From: Rhizobium sp. TH2
GTDB lineage: Bacteria > Pseudomonadota > Alphaproteobacteria > Rhizobiales > Rhizobiaceae
Length of the DNA: 64,000 nt
Reading direction: 5' to 3'
NCBI RefSeq assembly: GCF_024707525.1
Contig: NZ_CP062233.1
Span: forward strand, 62,001 to 126,000
Shown here: piece after piece, positions 18,734 through 63,416 of the stretch
Numbering within the stretch: the first letter of the stretch is position 1
Layout: every line of letters begins with the position of its first letter
The notes under the pieces: model-generated
Told to the model about the DNA's origin: nothing
What the model saw: only the letters and a program-made list of their open reading frames with translations
Database searches by the model: none
Translations under genes and position numbers: made by a program

Positions 18734-19210
18734 TCAGGCGGCCCGCTGGCCTTCGATCTGCTGGGGGTTTGCCGAGGTCAGCGAGGGAGCCACGGTCTGG
18801 ATCTCAATCTTGTGCGGCTTCATTTCGTCGGGAATCTCGCGGATAAGATCCACAGACAGCAGGCCGTTGACCAGGTTGGCGCCGGTCACCCGCACGTGGT
18901 CGGCAAGCTCGAATTTGTGCTCGAACGGCCGGCCGGCAATGCCACGATGGAGATAACCTTCAGCCTTGTCTCCTTCCTTGTGGCCAGTGACGATCAGCAG
19001 GTTGGACTTGAAGGTAAGTTCGAGTTCCTCTTCGCTGAATCCCGCCACCGCCAGGCTGATGCGGTAGGTATCATCTCCAGTTTTCACGATATCATAGGGC
19101 GGCCAGTCACTGATGGGACGGACGCGCTGGGCATTTTCCAGGAGATTGAAGACCCGGTCAAAACCAACGCTGGACCGGAACAGTGGGCTGTAATCGTAAG
19201 ATGTTGCCAT
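18734..19210 (-). CDS. small heat-shock protein (Hsp20/IbpA type)
   Basis: A 158-aa alpha-crystallin chaperone holding unfolding proteins in the cytoplasm. N-terminal Y-D-Y-S-P-L-F-R-S-S-V-G-F-D-R, typical of rhizobial IbpA/HspH; alpha-crystallin domain from about 35 to 130 (P-P-Y-D-I, A-G-F-S-E-E-E-L, G-L-L-S-V-D-L); the C-terminal I-x-I anchor is K-I-E-I. AAGGAGG lies 8 nt before the ATG at 19210 and only 2 nt before an in-frame ATG at 19216. Expression is likely heat-controlled by the ROSE-like leader. It follows the gene at 19296 on the same strand. Confidence 0.9.
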   Translation of the reverse strand: MATSYDYSPLFRSSVGFDRVFNLLENAQRVRPISDWPPYDIVKTGDDTYRISLAVAGFSEEELELTFKSNLLIVTGHKEGDKAEGYLHRGIAGRPFEHKFELADHVRVTGANLVNGLLSVDLIREIPDEMKPHKIEIQTVAPSLTSANPQQIEGQRAA

Positions 19211-19213
19211 AGC

Positions 19214-19300
19214 CATATCCTCCTTGAAGCAACATGGGTATTAAGGCAGTCAAGCCTTGTTAAACCGGCCCTCTTCGGCGCCGGCAAGGATCGATTTAGT
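19214..19300 (-). promoter_or_regulatory. ROSE-like RNA thermometer in the Hsp20 leader
   Basis: The leader ends in a hairpin CATGTTGCTTCAAGGAGG with TTGCT facing AAGGAGG, the U(U/C)GCU versus AGGA pairing that defines ROSE elements. Upstream are AAGGC-N6-GCCTT and a CCGGC/GCCGG stem. ROSE leaders block the ribosome site at low temperature and melt on heat shock, and are common ahead of rhizobial Hsp20 genes. Confidence 0.7.
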
Positions 19301-37689: not shown

Positions 37690-37811
37690 AAAGTTCGAGC
37701 GGCTCACTCCTCCTCCCAAAGGGGCCGTTCGTCGGAATAGCGATACTCCTCCCCTGATCGCTATTCCACTTTATGAAGCCTGCCGCACCTCCTCCCGCGG
37801 CAGGCTTTTTC
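37690..37811 (+). ncRNA. alpha-r14 / NfeR1-like small RNA
   Basis: Three consecutive hairpins each expose an anti-Shine-Dalgarno motif (CTCCTCCC type) in the loop: 37700-37727 (loop with CTCCTCCTCCC), 37734-37767 (11-bp stem GGAATAGCGAT/ATCGCTATTCC), and the terminator 37778-37805 (GCCTGCCGC/GCGGCAGGC, loop ACCTCCTCCC) followed by five T. This is the architecture of the alpha-r14 family (Smr14C/NfeR1 of Sinorhizobium meliloti), trans-acting RNAs that block translation starts and respond to osmotic and symbiotic conditions. The 5' end is not visible from sequence. Confidence 0.8.
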
Positions 37812-37969
37812 GTTTGAGCGATTTCCAGCCGCTTGCGCCGTGTTGAGATCGGTTCAGCAAGACTCCTGCACCGTTTTGTTGCATAGGTTACTCGACGCGC
37901 GATTCCTTGGGCAAGGCGAAATCGGTCAGCGATGACACACGGAAAAACCGGCTCCGCGAAAATCCCCCA

Positions 37970-48640: not shown

Positions 48641-48752
48641 GTTCTGCCCGCCCCCAGTTTGGGATGGCGAAGCAGAAGCATCGAAAGATTTGGGAAGCCC
48701 CTCCACTGACTCCAGGTAGGCGCGATTTTCCCTGCAAGTTGACGGTGCTTGG

Positions 48753-49127
48753 TTATGCTGTGACGGTTTTTGGGACGTTGAACGGTAGCAAGTCGCCGAT
48801 GTCGGCATCTTCGTCGCGCTGTGGCAACTCTGCAAGCACGTGGCGCAGCCAGGTGAGTGGGTCGACGCCACAGGCACTGCAAGTCAGCAGCAGACTGTAA
48901 ATCACAGCGCTGGCCCTGGCTCCCTGGGCCGTGTCGCTGCACAGCTACGATTTTCTTCCGGTGGCAAAAACTCTGATGTCGTGTTCCACAATGTTGTTAT
49001 CGATCGGCATCCGCCGGGTCTCTAGACGGCGCTCTTTGAGCAACTGGCGAAGATCCATGGCCCCCCAGCGGCACCTAACCAAAGCCATCCACGGCTTGGA
49101 CCGTGAATGCAGTGGTGATGCACTCAT
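48753..49127 (-). pseudogene. IS66-family transposase remnant (C-terminal part)
   Basis: Minus frame: M-P-I-D-N-N-I-V-E-H-D-I-R-V-F-A-T-G-R-K-S, then TAG where the family has Trp, then S-A-V-I-Y-S-L-L-L-T-C, G-V-D-P-L-T-W-L-R-H-V-L and a closing D-L-L-P-F-N. This is the end of an IS66 TnpC transposase. The first three quarters, the accessory ORFs and the terminal repeats are missing, so it is immobile. Confidence 0.75.
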
Positions 49128-51552: not shown

Positions 51553-52118
<566 letters not shown>

Positions 52119-52143
52119 GGAACCATTCCAAATCTCGGCCGTT
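52119..52143 (+). promoter_or_regulatory. EcfG promoter, perfect GGAAC-N16-CGTT
   Basis: GGAAC 52119-52123, CGTT 52140-52143. No ORF starts within 300 bp; a terminator lies 78 bp downstream (see the candidate sRNA). Confidence 0.75.
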
Positions 52144-52149
52144 CTTTGA

Positions 52150-52251
52150 GCAACTGTGGTCACATCCGTCCCCCCGAATGATCACAGCGGCATCCTTACC
52201 CTGGATGCCCTAGTCAGCGACCCGATGCCTCGCCCCGAGGCATCGGGTTTT
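52150..52251 (+). ncRNA. candidate EcfG-dependent small RNA
   Basis: About 100 nt between a perfect EcfG promoter and a strong terminator. Hairpin 1: 9-bp stem 52154-52162 with 52179-52187 (one G-U), loop containing CCGTCCCCCC. Hairpin 2: GGCATCC/GGATGCC (52189-52195, 52203-52209). Hairpin 3 is the terminator CCCGATGCCTC/GAGGCATCGGG (52221-52231, 52237-52247) followed by TTTT. No ORF. A C-rich exposed loop can pair with G-rich ribosome sites, as for GsrN, the sigma-T-dependent sRNA of Caulobacter. Transcript ends are inferred. Confidence 0.65.
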
Positions 52252-52503
52252 CATTTGCGGATCGGAACAACCCCGGGCCAATCAGTTAAGGCGCGAAGGA
52301 CCGCGCCATGCTCAAGCCCTAGTCGGCGTCGTAGAGACCGGATCTTTATTTTGTTGGCACGTCGGTTGGGATGTCGCCTTCAGTTTTTCGCCGCAGGCAT
52401 CGATATCTTGTCGCGGAAGATTGCCGAGCCTGTGCGTGGGCCACCCGGTAAATGTATGAAGTTCTTTCGCTTGGGCGCGGGCGAGCGTGACGGAGGAGCT
52501 TGA

Positions 52504-53766
52504 ATGGACATATACATCGTCACCTTGACGATCCTCGGCTTCGTCGTTCTTCTGACGGCTTGGTTGCCGATGCTATTGCGGCGATTGCCTCTGTCTCTTC
52601 CCATCTTCTGCATTTTCTTGGGCGCGGTCCTGGCCTGGTCGCCCCTCCCTCTACTGCCTGCCTTCAATCCGTTGGAAAACAGGGCGTTCACCGAGCATAT
52701 GACGGAGATCGTTGTGATCGTGGCCCTCATGGGCGCGGGCCTGAAACTGGATCGGAAGATCGGGTGGCGGCGATGGAGCACGACGTGGCGGCTCCTTGGC
52801 ATCGCCATGCCCCTGACGATCGCAGCCATCGCATTTCTGGGCCATTGGCTTCTGGGGTTGGGTGTCGCCTCTGCGCTTTTGCTCGGAGCGTCGCTGGCTC
52901 CAACCGATCCCGTGCTTGCCAGCGACATCCAGGTCGGGCCGCCACAGTCTGGAGAGGAGGATGATGTTCGGTTCGCATTGACATCAGAAGCTGGGCTGAA
53001 CGACGGCCTGAGCTTTCCATTTGTTCACCTCGCCATTGCAATTGCGCTGGCCGCCAAGCACGGCGCGGACCTCTGGCAGGACTGGCTGTTGATCGACGTC
53101 TTGTGGCGGATAGCCTCGGGCGTAGGCATGGGATGGGCAGCGGGATCGCTATTTGGCCATCTTGCGTTTCGGCTGAGGGGTATCAGTCTCGCCCGATCAC
53201 AGGACGGACTCGTCGCCATCGGCATGGCCTTTGCGGCGTATGGCATGACTGAACTGATCCTTGGCTATGGATTTGTAGCCGTTTTCATCGCCGCGGTTGC
53301 TTTCAGGGACTCTGAACGGGCGCACGATTTCCACGAGCAACTTCACGACTTTGCCGAACAGATCGAACGCCTGCTAATGATGGTATTGTTGGTCTGCCTA
53401 GGCTCCATCGCCGTGAGCGGCCCGCTGCTCAAGAACATCGATTGGCGGGTTGGTGTCGTGGCGTTCTTAACATTGGTCTTAGTCCGTCCGCTCCTGGGCT
53501 GGTTGAGCCTCTTGGGATCGCCGCGATCGACCGGGGAAAACCTTGTGATCGCGGTCTTCGGAATCCGAGGCCTGGGCTCTATCTACTACCTTGCCTATGC
53601 GACCGGTCACGCTGAGTTTGATAAGGTCGAGGTAATTTGGGCAACCGTAGTTCTGATCATTTTGACTTCCATCGTTGTCCACGGTGTCGCGGTAACGCCC
53701 ACAATGCGTTGGATCGACGGAACGAGGAAAAGCAAGCAGCCCAGATCAGACACGAATTCCGCGTAA
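52504..53766 (+). CDS. Na+/H+ antiporter-type cation:proton exchanger (CPA1 family)
   Basis: A 420-aa membrane protein with about 12 helices. Motifs A-P-T-D-P-V-L-A-S-D (about 136-145) and T-S-E-A-G-L-N-D-G (about 162-170) carry the conserved acidic residues of CPA1 exchangers; G-I-R-G-L-G-S lies near 360. It would exchange Na+ or K+ for protons under salt or pH stress. GAGGAGC precedes the ATG. The next gene follows after 19 bp. Confidence 0.85.
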   Translation: MDIYIVTLTILGFVVLLTAWLPMLLRRLPLSLPIFCIFLGAVLAWSPLPLLPAFNPLENRAFTEHMTEIVVIVALMGAGLKLDRKIGWRRWSTTWRLLGIAMPLTIAAIAFLGHWLLGLGVASALLLGASLAPTDPVLASDIQVGPPQSGEEDDVRFALTSEAGLNDGLSFPFVHLAIAIALAAKHGADLWQDWLLIDVLWRIASGVGMGWAAGSLFGHLAFRLRGISLARSQDGLVAIGMAFAAYGMTELILGYGFVAVFIAAVAFRDSERAHDFHEQLHDFAEQIERLLMMVLLVCLGSIAVSGPLLKNIDWRVGVVAFLTLVLVRPLLGWLSLLGSPRSTGENLVIAVFGIRGLGSIYYLAYATGHAEFDKVEVIWATVVLIILTSIVVHGVAVTPTMRWIDGTRKSKQPRSDTNSA

Positions 53767-55823: not shown

Positions 55824-56108
55824 ATGAAGAACGTTCTAGCCGGCTCAATTCTAGCCCTGTCCATTTCCTTCCCGGTATTCGCTCAGGACGTCGTGGTCGT
55901 TCCTGATCCGGTGACGACTTGGGTAACCGAGCAGCCGATGGACGGCGATGTCGTGGTGGAAGAGAAGTTCGTTGTCGGCGACGCCCTGCCTGACAAAGTC
56001 GTGATCAAGACTGTCAAGGACCACGACGACTACGGCTTTGCCGTCGTCAACAAGAAGCGTGTGATCGTCGAGCCCAAGACCCGCAAGGTCGTGAAGATCA
56101 TCGACTAA
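55824..56108 (+). CDS. secreted DUF1236-like protein (94 aa)
   Basis: Signal peptide about 1-20 (ends V-F-A-Q), then V-T-T-W-V-T-E-Q-P and a C-terminal D-Y-G-F-A-V-V-N-K-K-R-V-I-V-E-P-K-T-R-K-V-V, a short DUF1236-type domain. Periplasmic, unknown function. AGGAGAG precedes the ATG. Related to the C-terminus of 11600-12466. A perfect EcfG promoter upstream marks it as stress-induced. Confidence 0.8.
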   Translation: MKNVLAGSILALSISFPVFAQDVVVVPDPVTTWVTEQPMDGDVVVEEKFVVGDALPDKVVIKTVKDHDDYGFAVVNKKRVIVEPKTRKVVKIID

Positions 56109-63166: not shown

Positions 63167-63416
63167 GACCGACATTCTCCGGCCATCAGGTTTTGTGCGG
63201 TCCGGTTTTTGATGACGACTTTTGTGCGACTGGAAATGACGAATATACGGCTTGGCTTGGCAATCGATAAGGAGACGCACCTCTTCAATCCTTGAAAGCT
63301 GGCGAACGCCTCCCACATAAAGGCCGCTCCCCTGGTCCGGGCCCCTCTGGCGAATCTTCGGCACTTTCGTGATGTCGGACCATTTCCGACATATTGCCGG
63401 ACCCAGAGAGAGTTTC

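Follow-up and report, generated by a model that had tools for sequence, protein, structure and literature searches.

A predicted EcfG-dependent small RNA with a C-rich loop in Rhizobium sp. TH2, away from the general stress response locus

Stress-response small RNAs with C-rich loops and the element in the window

Among the closest described systems is GsrN of Caulobacter crescentus. In the excerpts of the source at hand, this RNA of about 100 nt is activated by sigma-T and affected by Hfq, and its 5′ loop of six C pairs with the katG leader, an interaction tested by mutation and compensatory mutation (PMC5869019). The same excerpts give target stretches such as AAGUCGGGGGGCG and GUCGGGGGGCGUC, place all BLASTn matches to GsrN within the Caulobacteraceae, and mention GsrN-like RNAs with an exposed C-rich loop predicted at the stress loci of Rhizobiaceae (PMC5869019). 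In Rhizobium etli, the RNA ReC64, encoded downstream of phyR-tcrY, depends on EcfG by 5′ RACE and promoter fusions (available part of PMC3892343). Meanwhile, sigma-E2 motifs have been placed upstream of 23 sRNAs in Sinorhizobium meliloti (available part of PMC3616915).

We analysed a stretch of 64,000 nucleotides of Rhizobium sp. TH2, hereafter the window, which lies on a 223-kb contig (C3). The element of interest and its neighbour comprise the following features:

52119..52143, + strand: EcfG (general stress sigma factor) promoter GGAAC-N16-CGTT, an exact box by the consensus in the available part of PMC3892343
52150..52252, + strand: predicted small RNA of about 100 nt, its start placed by promoter spacing
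52154..52187, + strand: hairpin 1 of the predicted fold, a 9-bp stem with a 16-nt C-rich loop, CATCCGTCCCCCCGAA, containing six C
52166..52177, + strand: presumed seed CCGUCCCCCCGA, 12 nt in the loop of hairpin 1, the same in the congener homologue (G005) and in the RNA at the organism's own ecfG-nepR locus
52189..52209, + strand: hairpin 2, GGCAUCC/GGAUGCC, 7 bp, from fold and alignment
52210..52218, + strand: single-stranded linker CUAGUCAGC, of which AGUCA is invariant in all four copies
52219..52249, + strand: intrinsic terminator of 14 pairs, GGG then UUUUC, with the stem taking in the first two U
52504..53766, + strand: sodium/hydrogen exchanger gene (PF00999, E 2.3e-37), a neighbouring gene outside the RNA

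The promoter consists of GGAAC at 52119-52123, a 16-nt spacer and CGTT at 52140-52143, and is identical to the sigma-EcfG1 motif given for R. etli in the part of the source at hand (PMC3892343). Boxes of this type are enriched in the window, where GGAAC-N15-17-CGTT occurs 8 times against a shuffle mean of 1.80, a count that none of 100 shuffles reached. The spacer is 16 in seven of these boxes and 17 in one, and each other spacer length from 8 to 27 gave 0-3 boxes in the 64 kb. Possibly, the 223-kb contig represents a stress-regulon island.

The region 52150-52252 has a predicted folding energy of -50.3 kcal/mol (z -7.3), equalled by none of 200 shuffles. In the predicted ensemble, the first five C of the six-C run are unpaired at 0.85-1.00 and the sixth at 0.42. 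Both a hairpin with at least five C in its loop and a terminator were found within 160 nt of only one of the 8 real boxes with spacer 16-17, namely that of the present element. Among the 330 boxes of 300 shuffled windows, three were followed by a terminator, three by a C-loop hairpin and none by both.

An earlier note on this DNA had described a perfect EcfG promoter, three stable hairpins with six C in the 16-nt first loop, and a strong terminator. At the level of sequence and predicted fold this observation is confirmed, with the sixth C only partly exposed. The antiporter was indeed placed correctly: from 52251 to its ATG at 52504 there are 253 bp. Two mechanical 115-codon frames (51866-52213 and 52156-52503) overlap the RNA. 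Neither has a Pfam match, and an 11-codon ATG frame starting at 52178 is, by eye, not kept in three aligned relatives. Most probably, the element is a genuine gene encoding a regulatory RNA of about 100 letters, switched on, as its promoter suggests, by the general stress sigma factor.

Like GsrN, the window RNA displays an EcfG consensus promoter directly upstream, a predicted length of about 100 nt, a 5′ hairpin predicted to expose a six-C run, a 3′ intrinsic terminator and, in its loop, the core CCCCCCGA implied by the GsrN target stretches in the excerpts at hand (PMC5869019). It differs from GsrN in having three hairpins and paralogous copies; the likeness described here is one of class features. 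C-rich loops are also common in other rhizobial RNAs; thus, the loop alone is no proof of kinship with GsrN. The small size and EcfG box are shared with ReC64 and the Rhizobiaceae stress-locus RNAs, and the C-rich loop with the candidates predicted in the excerpts of PMC5869019. Unlike these, the window RNA lies apart from ecfG-nepR, on a 223-kb contig, and is detectable in few genomes (ReC64 was compared by description only).

The RpoE2-dependent sRNAs of S. meliloti, such as SmelB126/smB9, resemble the window RNA in standing under the general stress sigma factor, and two of them, SmelB126 and SmelA018, were compared by sequence. SmelB126, tabulated with a 4 that we read as copy number in the available part of PMC7143759, was rejected as a homologue: its sequence, read from pSymB, lacks a C-rich loop and a family-model match. 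SmelA018 has no C-rich loops. The Caulobacter sRNA CC1840 (RF01521) aligned over the whole element, with a loop CCGUCCC...CGAA; membership was rejected, as its 17.4 bits fall short of the gathering score of 50. Among the titles and abstract starts of open-licence PubMed Central articles, we found no report of the window RNA or of paralogous off-locus C-loop EcfG RNAs.

Several other observations were made in the window. Five head-to-tail copies of ATTGCCG (51865-51899) lie upstream of the RNA. One of the remaining EcfG boxes precedes a PRC-barrel gene by 76 bp, and another lies upstream of a DUF1236 frame at 55824. Rfam models scored above their gathering scores for a terC RNA (54.5 bits) at 63329-63387 (+) and a ROSE thermometer (49.4 bits) at 19204-19285 (-). 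The region around 48716-49016 is 84-89% identical to Rhizobium/Agrobacterium plasmids among the matches listed, several of which are annotated as IS66 transposase.

Copies in the genome and in a congener

A BLAST search with 161 bases against the organism's own genome and 100 relatives matched one other genome (E 1.3e-7). This is the congener G005, the MAG Rhizobium sp. LANL01E, which carries the element on a contig of 159,529 bases. With a covariance model derived from copy A, that of the window, alone, this homologue scored 54.9 bits (E 7.7e-13 in 39 kb). Across 297 sampled family genomes, a set without G005, the same model matched the own genome only, at three places: copy A and two paralogues.

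C1 (5.88-Mb contig) 856643-856796, minus strand: paralogue B, 41.6 bits, E 3.9e-7 per genome
C3 (the window's own 223-kb contig) 159590-159745: paralogue C, 31.7 bits, E 1.5e-4 per genome

The four copies (A, B, C and that of G005) can be aligned from GGAACC to the U-tract, and all of them retain GGAACC, the three hairpins, the AGUCA linker and the terminator. Pairwise identities among the copies are 63-69%, with 93% between B and C. Judged by eye, the ORFs around B and C are partly near-identical between the two loci, so a segment duplicated between C1 and C3 is the probable origin of these two copies. The CCGUCCCCCCGA loop is identical in the G005 homologue and is replaced by UCGUCCCCCGCC in B and C. 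The -10 box is CGTT in the window copy, CATT in B and C and AGTT in G005, and the EcfG dependence of these three copies is therefore less sure.

Standard pairs fill 94.1% of the pair cells of the four-copy alignment, against 27-45% after sliding the pairing. Two pairs have changed on both sides, one in hairpin 1 and one in the terminator, both from U-A to C-G in G005. Of five covariation measures, four were reached by 18-30 of 500 shuffles and the fifth, on further pair types, by 292, so that covariation is supportive but modest; the sample is four sequences, and hairpin 2 of G005 is misaligned in it.

Of the 9 genus genomes, 2 gave strong matches (E 1e-30 or better) to a second covariance model (R2), built from all four copies; the next best match within the genus has E 9.5e-4. 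By BLAST and R2, a strong match is absent from 7 of the 8 other genus genomes, several of which are incomplete assemblies (81-86%). Over 394 family genomes, again sampled without G005, R2 matched 57 at E 0.1 or better, with a best value of 3.5e-8 outside the own genome, from a genome of another genus. BLASTn of the element against plasmid records gave no match, and all four copies stay below the gathering scores of Rfam. As far as these sequences reach, the family of the window copy is narrow in distribution (2/9 genus genomes).

The sequence test proposed in the earlier note supports its reading. Promoter, loop and terminator are found together in one congener, and again in the two paralogues, whose loop is altered and whose -10 box is less strong. 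The covariance search recovered G005 and the two paralogues, and among the 297 family genomes it found the own genome only.

We inspected 32 weaker R2 loci (8 in the genus, 24 in the family) and counted none as a family member. An EcfG-like box was present at four of them (L128, L129, L132 and L138), six are alpha-r14 RNAs by Rfam, and several others match mainly by the terminator, as judged by eye. L128 (genome G378, reverse strand) shows a short EcfG-box RNA with a CTCCAGTCAAAG linker and a family-like terminator, and without C-loop hairpins. At L135, L136, L137, L140, L141, L146 and L149, the stretches CCCCAGTC, CTCCAGTC or CTCCA recur by eye just before a C-rich-loop terminator, and these may represent a class of 3′-UTR RNAs.

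The stress-locus RNA and the shared loop

The nepR gene of the organism lies at position 764727 of C1, beside a gene for an ECF sigma factor. At a distance of about 1 kb from nepR, an EcfG-like box, GGAAC-N16-TGTT, precedes three hairpins with C-rich loops. The locus and a further site discussed below are:

L036 5173-5325 (C1, near nepR): own stress-locus RNA, three C-loop hairpins after an EcfG-like box
L072, G007:C46:221653-221664, reverse strand: site of CCGTCCCCCCGA in a 9-bp stem of the congener G007

The loops of the stress-locus RNA are UUCCCCU, UCCCCGCCC and AUUCCGUCCCCCCGA. The third, which sits on a 17-bp stem and was also delimited as ATTCCGTCCCCCCGA, carries the 12-nt loop sequence of the window RNA. 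The corresponding 12-mer, CCGTCCCCCCGA, has exactly two copies in the own genome, one in each RNA. In G005, the window-type RNA and the stress-locus RNA both carry it as well, so the 12-nt identity joins the two kinds of RNA in two genomes. The parallel with GsrN that the earlier note had drawn thereby gains substance, with an EcfG-box RNA of identical 12-nt loop at the organism's own stress locus. The last stem of this RNA contains AAGGAGAGAA / UUCUCUCC, kept in G005 and, in altered form, in other congeners.

In all, 27 nepR loci were scanned: all 9 of the genus and 18 picked from other genomes with a NepR match. For two of these 18, G025 and G055, an RNA of this kind had been seen beforehand. 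At 9 loci, and at none in the reversed control, an EcfG box is followed by a hairpin with at least four C in its loop; a looser rescan of the remaining 18 added G002 and G006, again with none in the control. This brings the EcfG-like box with C-rich-loop hairpins to 11 of 27 loci. Within the genus it is present at 8 of 9 (not G001), and outside at 3 of 18 (G010, G025 and G055), two of these three being the ones known beforehand. The region of the second hairpin includes CATCCCCCCGAA in G002-G004. In G025 (genus g18) and G055 (genus g48), the order is EcfG box, two successive C-loop hairpins and terminator, about 2.3 kb from nepR. On this sequence comparison, the window RNA would be a new off-locus sibling of a known kind, standing beside the stress-locus RNA.

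The pattern GGAAC-N15-18-CGTT-N8-38-CCGTCCC matched 48 of 199 family genomes; by eye, the reversed control gave similar counts (not summed), so the pattern is mostly chance. It nevertheless led to the EcfG-box, C-loop RNAs of genera g18 and g48 (L005/L006 and L073/L074). The 12-mer CCGTCCCCCCGA occurs in 69 of 297 family genomes, again much like its reversed control by eye, and neither pattern was visibly enriched in the family over that control. Thirty of the 12-mer matches were examined with their loci (L041-L070), besides those of G007 and the own genome, and the longest stem enclosing any of the thirty has 7 bp. G007 has two sites, one in a 5-bp stem and one in the 9-bp stem listed above, which includes several G-U pairs; no EcfG-like box lies within 140 nt upstream of either.

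A combined search for box and 12-mer over species genomes returned 25 stretches, one being the G005 contig. Another, L082 (Rhizobiales bacterium AFS048116), has on the reverse strand near 2948 a perfect EcfG box and a long predicted hairpin RNA carrying CCGTCCCCCCGA, among neighbours that by eye look like histidine kinases and receiver domains. The other 23 were rejected, having no enclosing stem longer than 6 bp.

Proposed role, alternatives and meaning

Promoter, size, architecture and seed fit the class of stress sRNAs, and the position does not, as the RNA is on C3 and not at the ecfG-nepR-phyR locus on C1. We therefore propose that it is a trans-acting sRNA which EcfG transcribes as part of the general stress response of alphaproteobacteria, that its C loop serves as seed and that the stress-locus RNA is its sibling, and give this reading a probability of roughly 0.7. 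The sequence contributes the promoter, predicted structure, terminator, paralogues, homologue, shared seed and the presence of ecfG and nepR.

Under stress, PhyR would free sigma-EcfG from NepR, as established for this system. EcfG would then transcribe the RNA of about 100 nt, one of three paralogues in the genome, from 52119-52143, and transcription would end at the terminator at 52219-52249. Hairpin 1 would present CCGUCCCCCCGA as a seed to G-rich, UCGGGGGGA-like sites in mRNA leaders or start regions. Pairing would change the translation or stability of these mRNAs, as GsrN does in Caulobacter. Since the seed is common to the window RNA and the RNA at ecfG-nepR, the two probably reach overlapping targets. 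EcfG transcription, pairing, the direction of regulation and the sharing of targets are the steps we infer.

A scan of the own genome for TCGGGGGGA-N0-25-ATG returned 13 rows, against 3 in the control. These correspond to 10 separate sites, one being the sRNA's own antisense. Plausible starts follow three of the nine others, namely those of a cobalamin adenosyltransferase (PF01923), a 295-aa frame and a 251-aa frame, the last two without a Pfam match in their first 150 residues. A fourth site, before a 180-aa frame, was set aside, as that frame lies opposite one of 886 codons. The predicted duplexes of the three sites have energies of -21.3 to -26.3, beyond the 1% point of 2000 random window pieces (-20.4), and are a lead only, because the sites were chosen for complementarity. 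Meanwhile, the antiporter leader forms a duplex of -17.3 kcal/mol with the loop, a value near the 5% point (-17.9) for random window pieces, and so does not stand out as a partner. By these modelled energies, the antiporter seems to be just a neighbour, not a special target.

The shared seed also permits another reading, in which the window RNA acts as a sponge or titrator that competes with the stress-locus RNA for targets or Hfq and so damps it. The identical 12-nt loop of both RNAs in two species and the location of C-loop RNAs on two contigs would suit such a role. Shared sRNA seeds, however, usually mean redundant siblings, and we hold the sponge to be unlikely.

The sibling sRNA we favour must also be set against two readings that are each somewhat less probable than a sponge. 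The first is an RNA of the alpha-r14 (NfeR1) type, whose loops mask Shine-Dalgarno sites and which merely happens to stand under an EcfG box. Both kinds share a plan of three hairpins with C-rich loops, and six weak matches of the four-copy model are alpha-r14 by Rfam. In the available part of PMC7143759, however, alpha-r14 RNAs carry an anti-Shine-Dalgarno motif in all loops, and the NfeR1 promoter is of the sigma-70 type. The Rfam alpha-r14 model (RF02344) has no match at the window RNA or in any of the four copies, and it recognises an RNA elsewhere in the window, so the identity of the two was ruled out. That RNA, at 37690-37812 (+), scores 99.4 bits against a gathering score of 58.8, and the window thus holds a second C-loop sRNA of another kind.

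The second is an EcfG-driven leader of the antiporter gene, controlled by read-through of the terminator (attenuation) and yielding no free RNA. The common strand and the position of the terminator, 253 bp before the antiporter ATG, are compatible with it. It is disfavoured by the unremarkable duplex energy of the antiporter leader and by the paralogues: no exchanger was recognised by eye among the listed ORFs around B and C. In G005, 70 bases separate the copy from the end of its contig. Finally, a chance or relic arrangement, with a promoter-like box beside an unrelated terminator and hairpin and no gene, would agree with the narrow distribution, and is the least credible reading given that shuffled boxes never combined C-loop hairpin and terminator and that the whole unit was found four times, with two both-sided stem changes.

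Returning to the sibling sRNA, its setting leads us to a tentative picture, which we consider possible rather than probable. The stress response of this Rhizobium relative would employ dispersed sRNAs that share a seed, with a core at ecfG-nepR and relatives elsewhere, two of them on the 223-kb contig. By its size, this contig may be an accessory replicon. If this picture is true, a plasmid could use its accessory copies to feed stress RNAs of its own into the post-transcriptional network of its host, copy number and promoter strength (CGTT, CATT) would set the dose, and the loop variants CCGUCCCCCCGA and UCGUCCCCCGCC would split the target set.

EcfG controls stress survival across the alphaproteobacteria, and in the parts of the literature examined the RNA arm of this response is mechanistically worked out only for GsrN of Caulobacter. 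Siblings sharing one seed within a single genome would offer a direct test of whether the C loop is the functional unit. They would also bear on the redundancy of the copies and on the question of plasmid-borne stress-response RNAs. These findings suggest that searches for GsrN-like RNAs should start from promoter, hairpin and seed instead of BLAST similarity or a location at the stress locus.
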